A stretch of DNA of 35,427 nt from positions 1-35,427 of the forward strand of contig CATLVU010000016.1 in assembly GCA_950061135.1 (NCBI GenBank). Reading direction: 5' to 3'. Shown in pieces: positions 26,951 to 33,046 of the stretch. How positions within the stretch are numbered: position 1 is the first letter of the stretch; the number at the start of each line of letters is the position of its first letter. A program made the translations under genes and the position numbers. Source of the stretch: an uncultured Oligoflexia bacterium. GTDB taxonomy: Bacteria; Bdellovibrionota; Bacteriovoracia; Bacteriovoracales; Bacteriovoracaceae. The notes below the pieces were generated by a model. That model was not told the DNA's origin, made no database searches, and saw only the letters and a list, made by a program, of their open reading frames with translations.

Positions 26951-28630
26951 ATGAGTGAAAAAATTATTTTTTCAATGTCTCGTGTATCAAAGACATATCC
27001 TGGAAAAAAGACTGTTATTAAAGATATCTCTTTGTCATTTTATTATGGCGCTAAAATTGGTGTTCTAGGGTTAAATGGTGCTGGTAAATCAACGTTGTTA
27101 AGAATTATAGCTGGAGTTGACCAAGAATTTAATGGAGAAGTGAACCTCTCCAAAGGAATAAGTGTAGGTTACTTAGAACAAGAACCAAAACTGGACCCTG
27201 AAAAAACGGTTAAGCAAATCGTCGAAGAAGGTGTTGCTGAGCTAGTAGATATTAGAGATCGTTACGAGGCCATTTCTGCTAAGTTTGCTGACCCAGATTT
27301 AGACCCAGACGAGATGAACAAATTATTAGAAGACCAGGCTGGACTGCAAGATAAGATGGATGCTTATGAAATTTGGGATTTAGATTCAAAGCTTGATCTT
27401 GCAATGAATGCATTAAGATGCCCTAATGAAGATCAAAAATGTGGAGTGCTCTCAGGAGGGGAAAAACGACGTGTTGCTCTTTGTAGATTATTATTACAAG
27501 AGCCTGATGTATTATTATTAGATGAGCCTACAAACCATTTAGATGCAGAGACAGTGTATTGGCTAGAACGCCATTTACAAGCTTATAAAGGAACTGTAAT
27601 TGCAATCACTCACGATAGATATTTCTTAGATAATGTCGCTGGATGGATACTGGAGCTTGATAGAGGTCATGGAATTCCTTGGGAAGGAAATTATTCGTCT
27701 TGGCTTGACCAAAAAACTAAAAGATTAGCACAGGAAGAAAAAACTGAGTCAAAAAGACAAAAAGCACTCAGAAGAGAATTAGAATTTATTCAATCATCTC
27801 CTAAGGCCCGACAAGCGAAAGGTAAGGCGAGGATTACAAATTATAATAAAATGCTTGAGGACTCTAAAACTGAAAAAAGAAATGAAACAAATGAGCTCTT
27901 TATTCCTAGTGGAGAGAGGCTTGGAAATAATGTTATTAACGCAGATCATGTTAAAAAAGCTTTCGGAGAGAAGCTTCTCTATGAAGATATGAATTTTAAA
28001 CTTCCTCCGGGGGGAATTGTTGGGATAATTGGACCTAACGGTGCAGGGAAAACAACCTTGTTTAAAATGATTACAGGAGAGCTTAAGCCTGATGAGGGAG
28101 ATTTTGTTGTTGGTGAGACAGTAAAATTAGCTTACGTAGATCAAGGAAGAGAGATGAATCCTGATAGTACTGTACTTGATGTGGTCGCAGAAGGGTTAGA
28201 CTTAATAGAGTTAGGTGGGCGAGAAGTTAATTCAAGGGCCTATATTTCTAAGTTTAATTTCTCTGGAGAGGATCAGAAAAAGAAGGTTTCAGAACTCTCA
28301 GGAGGGGAAAGAAATAGAGTACATCTTGCTAAAACCTTAAAAGAGGGCGGAAACGTTTTATTACTGGATGAACCTACTAACGATCTTGATGTTAATACTC
28401 TACGCGCACTAGAAGAAGCATTATTAGAATATGCTGGATGCGCAGTCGTAATTTCCCACGATAGATATTTCATTGATAGAATCGCAACTCATATTCTTGC
28501 ATTTGAAGGTGATTCAAAAGTTGTTTGGTTTGAAGGAAACTTTTCTGATTATCTAGAGGATAAAAAACGCAGACTAGGTGACGATGCAGAAGTTCCTAAA
28601 CGAATTAGTTACAAAAAGCTTAAGCGTTAA
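26951..28630 (+). CDS. ettA: ABC-F translational throttle protein EttA
   Basis: Ribosome-binding ABC-F ATPase that gates entry into elongation according to energy state. Two ABC domains: the first has Walker A GLNGAGKST (about 40-48), signature LSGGEKRR and Walker B VLLLDEPTNHLD; the second has GPNGAGKTT, LSGGERNR and LLLDEPTNDLD. Between them lies the charged linker (about 250-310). At 559 aa, with the arm region in domain 1, it matches EttA rather than Uup or YheS. GAGG lies six to seven bases before the ATG. Its last 11 bases overlap the convergent Tad ATPase gene. Confidence 0.93.
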   Translation: MSEKIIFSMSRVSKTYPGKKTVIKDISLSFYYGAKIGVLGLNGAGKSTLLRIIAGVDQEFNGEVNLSKGISVGYLEQEPKLDPEKTVKQIVEEGVAELVDIRDRYEAISAKFADPDLDPDEMNKLLEDQAGLQDKMDAYEIWDLDSKLDLAMNALRCPNEDQKCGVLSGGEKRRVALCRLLLQEPDVLLLDEPTNHLDAETVYWLERHLQAYKGTVIAITHDRYFLDNVAGWILELDRGHGIPWEGNYSSWLDQKTKRLAQEEKTESKRQKALRRELEFIQSSPKARQAKGKARITNYNKMLEDSKTEKRNETNELFIPSGERLGNNVINADHVKKAFGEKLLYEDMNFKLPPGGIVGIIGPNGAGKTTLFKMITGELKPDEGDFVVGETVKLAYVDQGREMNPDSTVLDVVAEGLDLIELGGREVNSRAYISKFNFSGEDQKKKVSELSGGERNRVHLAKTLKEGGNVLLLDEPTNDLDVNTLRALEEALLEYAGCAVVISHDRYFIDRIATHILAFEGDSKVVWFEGNFSDYLEDKKRRLGDDAEVPKRISYKKLKR

Positions 28631-29702
28631 TTACTTCTTCGTGTAAACAATCTTCATAGAAGACCTGATCTTTTTCCGAAGAATAAACCTTGATCAGTTC
28701 TGTGACTTTTTTGTCTTTTAAGAAAACGACATAATCAATATTTTGGCATAGTAGTTTTAGTATTGTGTCCATATTGATTTCTTTTTCAGAGTAAACCTTA
28801 AACATAAGAGACAGTCTTGTTAATGCATCAACTGCACTATTAGCATGCAAGGTTGAAAGAACTCCTTTGTGCCCGGTATTTATCGACATTAAGTATGTTT
28901 CAATTTCCTTACCCCTGAGTTCTCCTAAAACCATTCTGTCTGGACTCATTCTCATCGCATATGTCAGCATATCATTAAGGGTGACTATTTGATTTTCATT
29001 ATTATTTGTTATTAATCTAGAGGTATTCTCATGAGGGGATACAAGTTCGTAGGTATCTTCCATGATAATCAAATGGTCTTCTTTGCTACAATTAGACAAA
29101 AGAGCATTTAAAAAACTTGTTTTTCCACTACCAGTTGCTCCTGCAACTAGTATGTTTTTTTTGTTTGAAATCAAAGAAGAAACTAGATCGCTCCTATCGG
29201 TAAAACTTTTAACAGGGTAGGGCGTTTCATTTAAAAAACGAATATAAACCTTTGACTTTTTTTCAGGAGAAATAGAAAAGTGGCTCATGCTAATTCTGAC
29301 ATTCTTATCAAAAAATTTTGAATAAAAACTGATAAACGGATTTTTAAAGTTCCATGATTTTTGCTCTTTTTGAGCGATAACTTCAAAAGCTATTTGCAAG
29401 TCATTGCTAATGAGGTCACAATCAAAAATCTTTTTTGAGCGATTGTATTTAAAAACGATATAAGTAGGATCTTGAATAATAATTTCTTCTAGGCCATGGA
29501 GGTCTTGATCAAGAAAAGGGAGTTCTGTAATTTGGGTGTACCAACTCTTTAATAGATGAAAATAGCTTAAATCCTCAGCTGTATTGTTTTCATTATTATT
29601 TTGTACGAGACTTTGAGAAAGCTCTTCAAAAGAAAGAATCTTTCCTTGGTGAAGTGCTTCCACAAACTTTTTCTTTGAGAGTTGTAAGTTTTCAAAACTC
29701 AT
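28620..29702 (-). CDS. Tad/CpaF-type secretion ATPase
   Basis: Hexameric traffic ATPase that powers assembly of Tad (Flp) pili at the inner membrane. Walker A is GATGSGKTSFLNALL (about 187-201). LIIMEDTYEL is the Asp/Glu box, MRMSPDRMVLGELRG is the Walker B region, and NTGHKGVLSTLHANSA is the His box, all typical of CpaF/TadA. At 360 aa it is shorter than CpaF (about 450) and lacks most of the N-terminal extension. It follows the secretin gene with one base between and is last in the operon. Confidence 0.88.
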   Translation of the reverse strand: MSFENLQLSKKKFVEALHQGKILSFEELSQSLVQNNNENNTAEDLSYFHLLKSWYTQITELPFLDQDLHGLEEIIIQDPTYIVFKYNRSKKIFDCDLISNDLQIAFEVIAQKEQKSWNFKNPFISFYSKFFDKNVRISMSHFSISPEKKSKVYIRFLNETPYPVKSFTDRSDLVSSLISNKKNILVAGATGSGKTSFLNALLSNCSKEDHLIIMEDTYELVSPHENTSRLITNNNENQIVTLNDMLTYAMRMSPDRMVLGELRGKEIETYLMSINTGHKGVLSTLHANSAVDALTRLSLMFKVYSEKEINMDTILKLLCQNIDYVVFLKDKKVTELIKVYSSEKDQVFYEDCLHEEVINA

Positions 29703-29703
29703 A

Positions 29704-30954
29704 TTATTTTCCTAATGTAATAAAACCGATTATGCGTTTAACTGAGTTCTCATTTCCATATGTCCCAAAAAGATGTTTAAGGACTGGAATAGAGCCTAAG
29801 AGTGGAATACTTTTATTTGCTTTCATTGATGTTTGAAAGTCGATTTCAAAAACCTTGGTAGGGATATTCTCATCCAAGTATAAAATTGATTTACTCTTAG
29901 GACCACCAACACCATTATCACTAGGTGCTGTAAGTTGTGAGGACTGATTTAATAAAAACTTCTCATTTTTTATTTTTAAATCACCTTTAAGCTTTAAGCC
30001 CACGAATTTCCACTCGGTTTGTATAATTGCATCTTTTGATTGGGACTTGAAAGGAATTTCAGAACCAAGAGTTGACTCAAAATTTTCGTTTAGGATTGTA
30101 TTGATAACTTGTTCGCTAATAGTTCTAACTTTATATGATTGGTTTTCATATAATATATTATTTGTGGCCATACTCGGATTGTTTTCTAGTATTTCTTTTA
30201 ATGAAATATTAATTTGATCAAAGCCTGAACTATGATCAAACGAATCCTTGTTTTCAATCATTAGAATCTTCAATGTTAATTGATAGTTTTTACTTTCTTC
30301 TAACGATTCTTTTTGAAAAATTCTAACTCCATATTTTTTAGCAAGATTTTCTAATTCAATTTTATGAGTAGATGTGTACCAACATTCTATATTTGTCTGC
30401 TCAAACACATCGCAATCAATACTTTTCACTCCTCTGTTATAACTTTCTATATAGATATTTTTATAAATATGATTTCGAAGCTCCTTAGTAATATCAACTG
30501 ACCAAATAAAGTTTAAATTTTTAGAGTTTTTTATCTGATTATATATTCGGTATTGTTCGACATTAGTAATTGTTCCAGACACTTTAACAAAGTCACCCCA
30601 GATTTTTGTTTCAAGTTTGGTGTGTTTAAGTACCTGTAAAATTTCCATTTTATTGAGATGCTCTTTTTTGGATGAAACATAAAATTTATGAGTAATCTTG
30701 TTTTTCTTATTCCATAAGATCACATCAGAAAAACCAATACTTTTCGCCTTAATGAGCAATGTTTGTGATCCAGGATTGTGCTTATGTCCTAGAATCTGCT
30801 TGTTTCCGACAGAAAACTTAGATAATTTTCCCGTTGGAATCTCTATCTGTTCTCCTATAGAAATAAACCAGTCTTTGCCTTCTTGGGCATTTGTGCTACT
30901 TGTCAATGCGAAGAATAGGCAAAATACTTGAAAAATTTTGACAACTTGTTTCAT
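29704..30954 (-). CDS. Tad secretin, CpaC/RcpA-like, compact
   Basis: Outer-membrane channel subunit of the Tad pilus. The chosen start (30954) gives a Sec signal ending STNAQ; the 64-residue upstream extension to 31146 is hydrophobic, lies antisense to a small gene and is rejected. The N-terminal pilus domain follows the pattern PTGKLSKFSVGNKQILGHK then LLIKAKSIGFSDVILWN. The secretin core shows up in KSIPLLGSIPVLKHLFG followed by the last strand RIIGFITLGK. At 416 aa it is at the short end for the family and ends right after that strand. Confidence 0.75.
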   Translation of the reverse strand: MKQVVKIFQVFCLFFALTSSTNAQEGKDWFISIGEQIEIPTGKLSKFSVGNKQILGHKHNPGSQTLLIKAKSIGFSDVILWNKKNKITHKFYVSSKKEHLNKMEILQVLKHTKLETKIWGDFVKVSGTITNVEQYRIYNQIKNSKNLNFIWSVDITKELRNHIYKNIYIESYNRGVKSIDCDVFEQTNIECWYTSTHKIELENLAKKYGVRIFQKESLEESKNYQLTLKILMIENKDSFDHSSGFDQINISLKEILENNPSMATNNILYENQSYKVRTISEQVINTILNENFESTLGSEIPFKSQSKDAIIQTEWKFVGLKLKGDLKIKNEKFLLNQSSQLTAPSDNGVGGPKSKSILYLDENIPTKVFEIDFQTSMKANKSIPLLGSIPVLKHLFGTYGNENSVKRIIGFITLGK

Positions 30955-31009
30955 CCCCGATATTAATACTGACTTGGAAATTACAAAATAGAACATAAGA
31001 GGTATAAAA

Positions 31010-31141
31010 ATGGCTTCAAATACACAACAAACAAGAACTAGAAGAAAACTTAAAAGAAAAAAAATGGGTGCTAAGCGTAAAAATGCTAATAATAACCATG
31101 GATCAACACCTAAGTTTTCAATCCATCCAGATAAAAAATAA
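31010..31141 (+). CDS. 43-residue very basic protein, antisense in the Tad operon
   Basis: A short gene on the opposite strand to the flanking Tad genes. It has a strong ribosome-binding site (AAGAGG, seven bases before ATG) and a clear stop at 31139-31141. The product holds 14 Lys/Arg in 43 residues, clustered in TRTRRKLKRKKMGAKRK, then an Asn run and GSTPKFSIHPDKK. Such composition suits nucleic-acid or ribosome binding, but it does not match bL34 or bTHX. It fills the 191-base gap between the secretin and the upstream gene. Confidence 0.65.
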   Translation: MASNTQQTRTRRKLKRKKMGAKRKNANNNHGSTPKFSIHPDKK

Positions 31142-31145
31142 TTCA

Positions 31146-31454
31146 TTATTTTACTCCTGTCGTTGATGAGAATTTTGATAAAGAGCTTGTAATTAGCTTT
31201 ACTTTGTCATGATTTCCAATAACTTTAAGCTTTGAATCTTTGTTTATACAAAGTTCAAGTTTTCTATTCATTTTTTTAGGACATTTGTTGTGAGTTACTT
31301 CGATTAACTCCTGAGGGATTTCGTATTTCGAAATGAAATATTTTTTTATATGGTTTGCCGTTGTTTGTTTATTAGCATGATGAATCCTAATTAATGAAGC
31401 TTGGGCGGTATTTAGTATTGTAAAAACAATCGTAATTCTAAAAAATAATTTCAT
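31146..31454 (-). CDS. Small secreted protein in the Tad operon
   Basis: The start at 31454 (AGGAG nine bases upstream) gives a signal peptide (MKLFFRITIVFTILNTAQAS); the ORF beginning at 31505 would add residues before the signal. The mature 80-residue domain is basic with two cysteines (HNKCPKK, LELCINK) likely paired. No family recognised. It overlaps the upstream gene by 17 bases, so it belongs to the same operon and is probably a periplasmic accessory of the pilus. Confidence 0.6.
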   Translation of the reverse strand: MKLFFRITIVFTILNTAQASLIRIHHANKQTTANHIKKYFISKYEIPQELIEVTHNKCPKKMNRKLELCINKDSKLKVIGNHDKVKLITSSLSKFSSTTGVK

Positions 31455-31893
31455 AGCTTTTTCTCCTAGTTGTTTTAAATTTTTCATTTGTGTGTGGAAT
31501 AACAATCAGTTCTTTTGAATTAAGTAACTGAGGGATATATTGTTTGTGAATATAGATAGTTAATTGTGGTGTAGAACTCTTTAATAACCCATCTTCTGCA
31601 TCAAAACTTGGTATCTTTTTACTTGGGGATTTTTCGGAAATTAATAAAGCATAGGGAATATGCAAATTTTGTTTTTTATTTATTATGCTTATTGGACTTC
31701 CATATGAAAAGAATGTTTTAAGTTGAGCATTGATTTTAAAATATACATAATCAGGCCTGTGTATATGTTGTGATCTCTTTACTTGTGAAAGACTTGAGCT
31801 TTCAGTAGAGCACATCATGTAGACAGTAAGATTGCTCAGTAAAAATAATATGAGATAAATTCTTTTTTTCTTATCAATTGTATTTTTTTTCAT
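31438..31893 (-). CDS. Anchored periplasmic protein, possibly CpaB/RcpC-like
   Basis: Start at 31893 (GGGAAG upstream) gives a basic N-terminus and one membrane helix (about 11-27), then a periplasmic domain. The segments FSYGSPISIINKKQNLHIPY and PQLTIYIHKQYIPQLLNSKE resemble the SAF/RcpC arrangement of CpaB, where a Gly-x-x-V/I-x-I strand is followed by a closing strand-helix-strand. The similarity is weak. The position just upstream of the secretin gene, as in many Tad loci, adds support. It is shorter than typical CpaB (about 250 aa). Confidence 0.45.
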   Translation of the reverse strand: MKKNTIDKKKRIYLILFLLSNLTVYMMCSTESSSLSQVKRSQHIHRPDYVYFKINAQLKTFFSYGSPISIINKKQNLHIPYALLISEKSPSKKIPSFDAEDGLLKSSTPQLTIYIHKQYIPQLLNSKELIVIPHTNEKFKTTRRKSYEIIF

Positions 31894-32128
31894 ATTCTTC
31901 CCATGTTGATTGAAATTCATTTGTTTGCTTGATGCTTATTTCTAAAAGTTTTTTATGCATTGCCATTGTCGTCACCATAATAGTCGCGATAAAGAATCCA
32001 TAAATGACGAAATCAATTGTGGATAGTCCTTTATGTTGGAGGAGAGGAGCATCGATTTTGTTTTGTTTGTTACTTGGTTGTGATCTAGCTGAATGAGATA
32101 TTTTTTGTTTATTAAATAAGACTTCCAT
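31874..32128 (-). CDS. Pseudopilin-like Tad protein
   Basis: Start ATG at 32128 has a strong ribosome-binding site (GAGGAA, six to seven bases upstream). A 34-residue basic leader ends in KG, followed by LSTIDFVIYGFFIATIMV. This looks like a prepilin-peptidase site with Asp instead of Glu at position +5 (Gly34, Asp39), then one hydrophobic helix and a charged helical tail. Such proteins act as minor pilins or TadE-like components. The leader is unusually long. The gene lies 157 bases inside the previous reading frame (see findings). Confidence 0.6.
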   Translation of the reverse strand: MEVLFNKQKISHSARSQPSNKQNKIDAPLLQHKGLSTIDFVIYGFFIATIMVTTMAMHKKLLEISIKQTNEFQSTWEEYEKKYN

Positions 32129-32592
32129 CTTTGTTTCCTCATAATCGCAATTCCTTCAAAATTACGTGTAAGTTTAAGTTTTCTCTTATATGGCCCTAGT
32201 ATTGTATAAGGGTCTATAAAACAATTTCTTGAGTGAATTTGATTAACCATTTTGGTAATATGAATGCCTGAGTCAGTTTCTTGAGCACCTTGTACTAATT
32301 TTTTTATAACATTAGCAGCTGCTGATACAGGACCTAAAATTGGAATTACCACTGAAAGGTATTTAGTATATTCAGCCTTGTCTAAAAGCCTTATGGCGTT
32401 ATTCATTATTTGCATTCTTGAAATATGTTGTTTGCTTTCACCATCAACGTATTTTGCACAAAGTAATAGGTCTTGTTTCTTTTTTAATGCACTTACTTTT
32501 TTCATATGAAAGGAAAGAGTCAAAAGAGCAAAGAAGGTAATAATCATTAAAAAAAGTAATGATAATAGTGTTGTATTTCCTTTTTCATTCAT
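31972..32592 (-). CDS. TadE/TadG-like pilus component
   Basis: Start at 32592 (AAGG before it) gives MNEKGNTTLLSLLFLMIITFF, a short charged leader and a long hydrophobic helix, the type seen in TadE/TadF/TadG minor pilins. A helical periplasmic part follows, with two cysteines (LLLCAKY, SRNCFID) and a Gly/Ala-rich hydrophobic patch (SVVIPILGPVSAAANVI). It overlaps the 95-residue gene upstream by eight bases. Its last 50 codons overlap the next gene in another frame and look less protein-like than the rest. Family assignment rests on position and topology. Confidence 0.5.
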   Translation of the reverse strand: MNEKGNTTLLSLLFLMIITFFALLTLSFHMKKVSALKKKQDLLLCAKYVDGESKQHISRMQIMNNAIRLLDKAEYTKYLSVVIPILGPVSAAANVIKKLVQGAQETDSGIHITKMVNQIHSRNCFIDPYTILGPYKRKLKLTRNFEGIAIMRKQRWKSYLINKKYLIQLDHNQVTNKTKSMLLSSNIKDYPQLISSFMDSLSRLLW

Positions 32593-32872
32593 TGTGAACC
32601 TTACCTTCAGGCATATCAATTTTGATGTTTAAAACTTGTAAGTTAAAAGGTGAAATTGATCTTAATCCTGATTTTGTTTCTAGAGTTTTATAGAGGCATT
32701 TAGCATCAAGGTTCGTGATATCAATACTACGAGTTAGGTATTTATCTAATTGATTATTTAAACTGCCGTAGAACATAGTATTTCTACAATTGGTATGTGA
32801 TAAAACTTTTGATGCCTGAATCATCGCTACCACCATAAAACTTCCAACAATGACAAAATTAAGAATATTCAT
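32585..32872 (-). CDS. TadE-like small membrane-anchored protein
   Basis: 95 residues: a hydrophobic helix right at the N-terminus (MNILNFVIVGSFMVVAMIQA), then a periplasmic domain with two cysteines (HTNCRN, DAKCLYK). The ATG follows the pilin stop directly (TAA ATG), so translation is coupled. No family recognised. Position between pilin and other Tad genes suggests a minor pilin or assembly factor. Confidence 0.55.
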   Translation of the reverse strand: MNILNFVIVGSFMVVAMIQASKVLSHTNCRNTMFYGSLNNQLDKYLTRSIDITNLDAKCLYKTLETKSGLRSISPFNLQVLNIKIDMPEGKVHNE

Positions 32873-33046
32873 TTAAACTTCTATCTCTTGAATTTTATCG
32901 CTCATATTTTCAAGTCTTGTTTCAAGGGCACTACCTATTTTCTTGACGGCAGCTAGGCAAAATATTCCGATGAGGGCGGTAAGAATAATATATTCTAGTA
33001 TTCCTTGTCCTTTTTGGTTCTTAGTCGTTTGAGTGTGAAATTGCAT
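32873..33046 (-). CDS. Flp/Tad major pilin
   Basis: 57-residue prepilin. After a basic leader (MQFHTQTTKNQKG) comes QGILEYIILTALIG, an exact Flp-type processing site: cleavage after Gly13 with Glu and Tyr at positions +5 and +6. The hydrophobic helix (about residues 16-33) is followed by a short charged tail (KKIGSALETRLENMSDKIQE), which is normal for Flp pilins. A strong AAAGGAG sits six to seven bases before the ATG. It is the first gene of the minus-strand Tad operon, which fits the high expression of a main pilin. Confidence 0.85.
   Translation of the reverse strand: MQFHTQTTKNQKGQGILEYIILTALIGIFCLAAVKKIGSALETRLENMSDKIQEIEV

Follow-up and report, generated by a model that had tools for sequence, protein, structure and literature searches.

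A conserved small basic protein gene antisense to a predicted N-terminal leader of the Tad secretin in Bacteriovoracaceae

The noncontiguous operon menE-menC-MW1733-ytkD-MW1731 of Staphylococcus aureus places a gene on the opposite strand between co-directional genes, and in the available text of the review PMC7154746 the opposing gene pairs with an internal untranslated region. Antisense genes encoding proteins, namely laoB, ano, asa, and pop, have been described in Escherichia coli O157:H7, where some antisense overlapping genes have been interpreted as overprinting; the available part of PMC7457138 calls antisense overlapping genes so far “typically relatively young”. A small RNA and Tad genes occur together with bd0108 and bd0109 in the hit locus of Bdellovibrio, as the accessible sections of PMC3818213 describe it.

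The locus reported here lies in a stretch of 35,427 nt (the window) from an uncultured Oligoflexia bacterium (assembly GCA_950061135.1, contig CATLVU010000016.1). As in the noncontiguous operon, an opposite-strand gene is situated between co-directional genes and each mRNA would be antisense to the other, but the opposing stretch is here an open, phase-locked part of a secretin frame, and co-transcription and control of the noncontiguous-operon kind are putative. It shares with the E. coli O157:H7 cases the presence of protein genes on both strands, but differs in that the embedded gene appears to be old and the extension of the long gene the newcomer, and in that a set of 95 distinct loci, compared with controls, shows selection. 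With the hit locus, which belongs to the same phylum, it would share a small transcript unit beside Tad genes. Protein coding on both strands of bacterial DNA is debated, as the cases on record are young and often limited to a species, and effects of the code are hard to tell apart from them. To our knowledge, selection of both strands as protein is rarely well supported in bacteria. The pair is not described in the open-licence literature searched, as far as the available text of these papers extends (including PMC3818213, PMC11656739, and PMC5430801).

The Tad genes of the window are on the minus strand, the most upstream being a Flp-like pilin gene at 32873-33046 (PF04964, E 6.6e-4, significant but below the curated cut-off). 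The Tad ATPase gene (T2SSE, CpaF/TadA-like) spans 28620-29702 (PF00437, E 5.5e-34) and the secretin gene 29704-31146, with a secretin match (E 2e-5) that is significant and lies below the curated cut-off. The co-directional gene upstream of the secretin (31146-31505, minus strand, 119 aa as listed) belongs to no Pfam family. Between this neighbor and the pilin are four minus-strand genes (31438-32872; 160, 84, 215, and 95 aa), none with a Pfam match above the cut-off. On the plus strand, an ABC-F ATPase gene (EttA-like by eye, 26951-28630) ends 11 bases inside the 3' end of the Tad ATPase gene, so that the Tad run converges with what is probably a gene for a translation factor. According to the accessible portion of PMC5430801, predation requires Tad pilin genes, and the Tad operon of two Bdellovibrio species responds to FliA as its driver when tested with a reporter in E. 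coli. A search for an E. coli-type FliA site upstream of the operons at 41 loci gave best scores no better than shuffled ones.

The small basic protein gene is located at 31010-31141 on the plus strand, encodes 43 aa, and is preceded by the Shine-Dalgarno sequence AAGAGG (30997-31002, 7 nt before the ATG). Lys or Arg account for 14 of the 43 residues, counted from the translation. The preliminary description of this DNA had reported a 43-codon ORF with a correctly spaced AAGAGG and one-third Lys or Arg, and it was accurate on each point. Fifty-four ORFs of at least 30 aa are listed in 9.4 kb of window DNA, and as ORFs of this size are common by chance there, conservation is the test of the small ORF. 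Of 97 related genomes, 64 contain a match to the protein at E<=0.01, and a profile of 56 family members matched 308 of the 368 genomes of the phylum; among genomes at least 90% complete and at most 5% contaminated, 213 of 234 matched. The conserved short homologues in Bdellovibrionota that the preliminary description had proposed looking for, also at unrelated loci, are thus present, and their neighborhoods vary. Copy number is one in 307 of the 308 genomes and two in the remaining one, G158 being the sole listed genome with two matches.

Loci of the window's family, which is Bacteriovoracaceae as judged by the named loci, were compared after removal of identical small-gene sequences (130 to 103 loci). 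L106, whose gene was missed by the regular expression, was dropped, as were six loci without a secretin match (including L145, where the contig ends, and L139, from a control-family genome) and the control-family genomes L143 and L144. Across the 95 usable distinct loci, every small gene starts with ATG, and a strict Shine-Dalgarno sequence precedes it in 87, compared with 21 when the test is placed 30 nt further upstream; in other families, 56 of 72 loci have one. Proteins of 41-45 aa are encoded at 68 of the 95 loci (range 41-99). Family members share an N-terminal MxSxT, with few exceptions, followed by G-x-x-RK and G[ST]T. Among the window's family and its closer relatives, the C-terminus takes the form GTTPKFxIH; families that include a genome of the size of HD100 have GTTxSxxxLFGD instead. 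Judged by its conservation, ORF 31010-31141 is a real, conserved gene.

The family is not listed in Pfam, NCBIfam, or PDB, searches of which gave zero relevant matches, known ribosomal and nucleoid families included. The weak matches were to unrelated families (best Pfam E 0.012; one PDB chain at E 0.83; one member against L25/Ctc in NCBIfam at E 0.073). Plasmid searches using two family members were null. A DNA scan of 84,980 species with the NKGTTPKF form alone returned 127 stretches, 125 of them encoding relatives, and each of the 80 listed titles named either a Bdellovibrio-like group or an unplaced metagenome bin.

Upstream of the small gene, a sigma-70-type promoter lies inside codons of the secretin leader. 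In the window, it consists of a −35 element TTGACA (30938-30943, plus) and, 17 nt later, a −10 element TATTAA (30961-30966, plus; family consensus TAAAWW). Every one of the 95 loci of the family has TTGAC in the 160 nt before the small gene, the picked copy being out of register in five (L006, L037, L044, L056, and L079), and its spacing to the best −10 is 17 in 90 of 95, giving the form TTGACA-N17-TAAAWW. A generic promoter scan does not report the window's boxes, and the −10 lacks the final T that the scan requires. In other families, 24 of 31 and 32 of 41 loci have a TTGAC in the 200 nt before the gene. Read on the minus strand, the −35 box gives the Val-Lys (GTC AAA) that is conserved in the secretin leader. 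This Val-Lys was considered as a GTG start and rejected, as the codon is GTC in 89 of 92 loci and mirrors the −35 box.

On the plus strand, 53 of 95 loci have a terminator-like hairpin after the small gene, and none has one on the minus strand of the same stretches; the same scan found no terminator after the small gene of the window. A conserved promoter, together with oriented terminators in 53 of 95 loci, makes a plus-strand transcript of the small gene likely. These features, and complementarity over the secretin start, would also fit a plus-strand unit that is mainly a cis-antisense RNA controlling the secretin, with the peptide secondary. Such an RNA would not account for a peptide that is kept throughout the phylum, including in many neighborhoods where no Tad gene lies opposite, and we hold it to be highly improbable.

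Neighborhoods of the small gene support this view. Tad genes lie opposite it at every one of the 95 loci of the window's family. Several other families have a minus-strand secretin followed by the small gene and then metK, both on the plus strand, and in further families, the small gene follows a CpaF-like gene or sits beside surE, rplC, or an outer-membrane-like gene; these neighborhoods were named by eye from translations and represent at least those viewed. Contact with Tad would accordingly be old but not universal in the genomes compared. Next to such varied non-Tad neighbors, the function of the small gene need not depend on Tad, and because the gene also exists away from Tad, control of Tad is unlikely to be the core function of the protein. 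In one genome (L062:3995-4120, minus strand, genome G062), the small gene comes immediately after rplC (uL3), an EF-P gene faces it, and gatCAB-like genes lie farther on; this translation neighborhood was named by eye and seen in this one case.

On the minus strand of the window, the secretin frame is open up to and past ATG 31146, its best start, and with this start the whole small gene would be inside the secretin gene. The predicted N-terminal leader of 88 codons (30883-31146) would comprise the antisense stretch, a spacer, and the signal peptide. Relative to the small gene, the secretin frame keeps a single phase at all 95 loci, and four of the six dropped loci without a secretin match, read by eye instead, agree in phase. 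Its spacer contains 0 stops in 4,691 codons, compared with 300 and 271 in the other minus frames. With one column of the secretin alignment as anchor, all 91 loci share a phase, and the lengths take 28 values. One FastTree secretin tree, from which 4 of the 95 secretins were left out as too short, implies at least 47 length changes, a count that includes the signal-peptide part, which is coding on any reading. The promoter-to-ATG distance is a multiple of 3 in 92 of 95 loci, with at least 39 changes among these rows; the other three (L020, L121, and L123), where a nearer TTGAC lies at 57, are excluded from the 39. This stretch would be untranslated if the plus strand alone counted, and drift in threes so often is not expected unless the frame is read.

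As controls, 24 loci of other families with the same gene order were used, 7 of 31 having been dropped for lack of a secretin motif. Their secretin frames are distributed over the three phases (8, 7, and 9); two of the 24 reach into the small gene, and one spans it. A phase-locked minus extension was seen only in the window's family. On this comparison of sequences, selection keeps the secretin extension open and in frame opposite the small gene.

Given an extension under selection, the minus frame alone might matter, with the small ORF as its mirror image, and the shared third codon positions, through which each frame constrains the other, would allow for that. The small protein is, however, kept without secretin overlap or Tad, with its own Shine-Dalgarno sequence and TTGAC upstream, whereas the phase-locked extension is confined to one family. 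The family's distribution already refutes the mirror-image reading, to which we give next to no chance. The preliminary description had named, as a case against the small gene, loss of its frame with retention of the antisense secretin extension; both are kept.

The start of the secretin gene also points to a long reading frame. In the window, the TAA of the upstream gene overlaps the secretin ATG by 1 nt (TAATG), and the Shine-Dalgarno sequence AGGAG (31154-31158, minus) is seven bases upstream, inside the end of that gene. The secretin frame has a strict Shine-Dalgarno sequence with a start near the 3' end of the small gene at 60 of 95 loci; the other two minus frames, where less of the sequence is open, have one at 0 and 2 loci. 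The distance from the stop of the upstream gene is between −20 and +30 in 56 of these 60 starts, with 13 four-base and 7 one-base overlaps among the 60. By a looser rule, 77 of 95 loci have a start with a Shine-Dalgarno sequence, 9 a start alone, and 9 no in-frame start by the 3' end of the small gene. All 95 loci have the secretin on the near side of the small gene and, no more than 260 nt from its 3' end, the end of a minus-strand open frame of at least 80 codons; this places the opposite-strand gene between co-directional genes that presumably form one operon.

The preliminary description had placed the small gene in a 191-base gap between two minus-strand Tad genes. Tad genes do flank it, but the gap holds only if the secretin starts at ATG 30954, and the small gene appears instead to be nested in the 5' part of the secretin gene, with ATG 31146 as best start. 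The earlier interpretation was right as to a real, conserved basic protein and overlooked the nesting and the selected secretin extension; the influence on operon read-through that it suggested is hypothetical. A start at ATG 30954, at the signal peptide, would make the open antisense frame a by-product of composition, the small gene being rich in Lys and Arg and poor in Tyr, with third codon positions facing those of the other frame. An ATG, GTG, or TTG is in frame within the spacer in 84 of 95 loci, so that a shorter secretin is possible in those, whereas 11 of 95 have no start codon of any kind there.

Composition by itself opens the antisense frame in a fair share of loci: synonymous resampling predicts 38.7 of 95, and the corresponding frame is open in 10 of 32 and 10 of 39 homologues from other families. 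In the window's family, the frame is open within the small gene in 87 of 95 loci, against a maximum of 53 in 5,000 draws of a test in which related loci are not independent. Codon choices that would create a minus-strand stop were made in 9 of 147 chances (expected 67.4). The Ile before the conserved His is coded by ATT in 6 of 80 members of the window's family versus 13 of 28 relatives from other families; ATT is avoided although the overlapped loci are A+T-rich (median GC 0.37), and it is the commonest Ile codon within the same secretins. A compositional by-product also leaves unexplained the single phase, the stop-free spacer, the distances in threes, the starts with Shine-Dalgarno sequences by the 3' end of the small gene, and the mixed phases of the 24 controls, and we consider it improbable.

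Both frames share third codon positions, and therefore the minus-strand peptide is largely dictated by the plus-strand peptide. Lys and Asn read antisense as Phe or Leu and Arg mostly as Leu, and the best 19-residue hydropathy of the minus peptide has a median of 2.49 and exceeds 1.6 in 92 of 95 loci. Identity among minus peptides (0.573 vs 0.517) was rejected as evidence, as composition and shared ancestry can explain it.

Eight of the 95 loci have a stop in the antisense frame near the 3' end of the small gene, and a ninth, L125, was found by eye; full-length overlap is therefore not universal. In seven of the eight (all except L069), a minus-strand ATG overlaps the ATG of the small gene in the palindrome CATG. 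This overlap occurs in 12 of the 87 other loci (p 3e-5, with related loci not independent).

We think it probable that the locus arose by overprinting, as a nested antisense pair in which the plus-strand gene is old and the secretin leader on the minus strand is newer. Both frames appear, from the tests above, to be selected as coding, and one gene predates the overlap, the small gene being phylum-wide and the extension found in the window's family. On the plus strand, the old gene would have its own promoter and encode a protein of about 42 aa that binds nucleic acid. The secretin gene of Bacteriovoracaceae would have been lengthened upstream through the small gene and its promoter, so that translation would start beside the stop of the preceding gene and run unbroken across the DNA of the basic protein. 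The leader may be translated and then removed with the internal signal peptide, and it may serve to maintain translation and coupling of the operon mRNA where the opposing gene lies; it would not serve to carry a specific sequence, because its residues there follow the plus-strand codons. The two mRNAs would be complementary over the small gene and the secretin start, and each could thus restrain the other, as we propose they do.

In a more elaborate proposal, the two strands form a translated excludon by which life phases are kept apart. Expression of the Tad operon in attack phase would bring mRNA and polymerases that silence the housekeeping small gene; conversely, whenever the sigma-70 promoter of the growth-linked small gene is strong, the mRNA from it would mask the secretin start, and the open leader would let ribosomes protect the mRNA across the opposing gene. 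With all of these steps included, we regard it as doubtful.

The double-coded stretch is the more interesting fact, and the small protein family is absent from the libraries searched. An old gene, a family-limited extension, 95 loci, insertions and deletions that keep the phase, start signals, and controls render the claim testable in cultured Bacteriovorax and Halobacteriovorax. Most genomes searched of this phylum, which has predatory bacteria among its members, carry the small protein family, and a pipeline that disallows overlaps of this type would probably omit the small gene or truncate the secretin.

Short basic ribosomal proteins such as bS22, bTHX, and bL34 are similar in size and basic composition to the small protein, but unlike them, its family has no relevant profile match in PDB, Pfam, or NCBIfam. 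AlphaFold models the small protein (mean pLDDT 82) as a single helix spanning residues 6-28 plus a loose tail. Composition, the helix, the breadth of the family, and the single copy beside rplC (L062) suggest that it binds nucleic acid, with RNA more likely than DNA and the ribosome as the most likely site. It is possible, if on the whole unlikely, that it is instead a nucleoid protein that binds DNA. A helix in a very basic protein would suit this, as would the long Lys/Ala/Pro tail of L030, which presumably resembles those of histone H1; nothing decisive speaks against it, and the rplC/EF-P neighborhood of L062, a single case, leans to translation. Lys/Ala/Pro-rich C-terminal tails also occur in L026, L037, L035, and L145. 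L030 is 99 aa in total, and its antisense frame is open throughout the tail.

A homologue of the small gene is present at ~3.644 Mb in genome G170, which has the size of HD100 (3,782,950 bp). The hit-locus RNA is at 96436-96822 of HD100 in the available text of PMC3818213, and the small gene as part of the hit locus was therefore rejected. Many Bdellovibrionia-like loci (L146-L184) share a conserved element resembling a promoter, made up of TTGACT and, 15 nt further on, GATAAC or a similar sequence; in the HD100-sized genome it lies 59 nt before the ATG.
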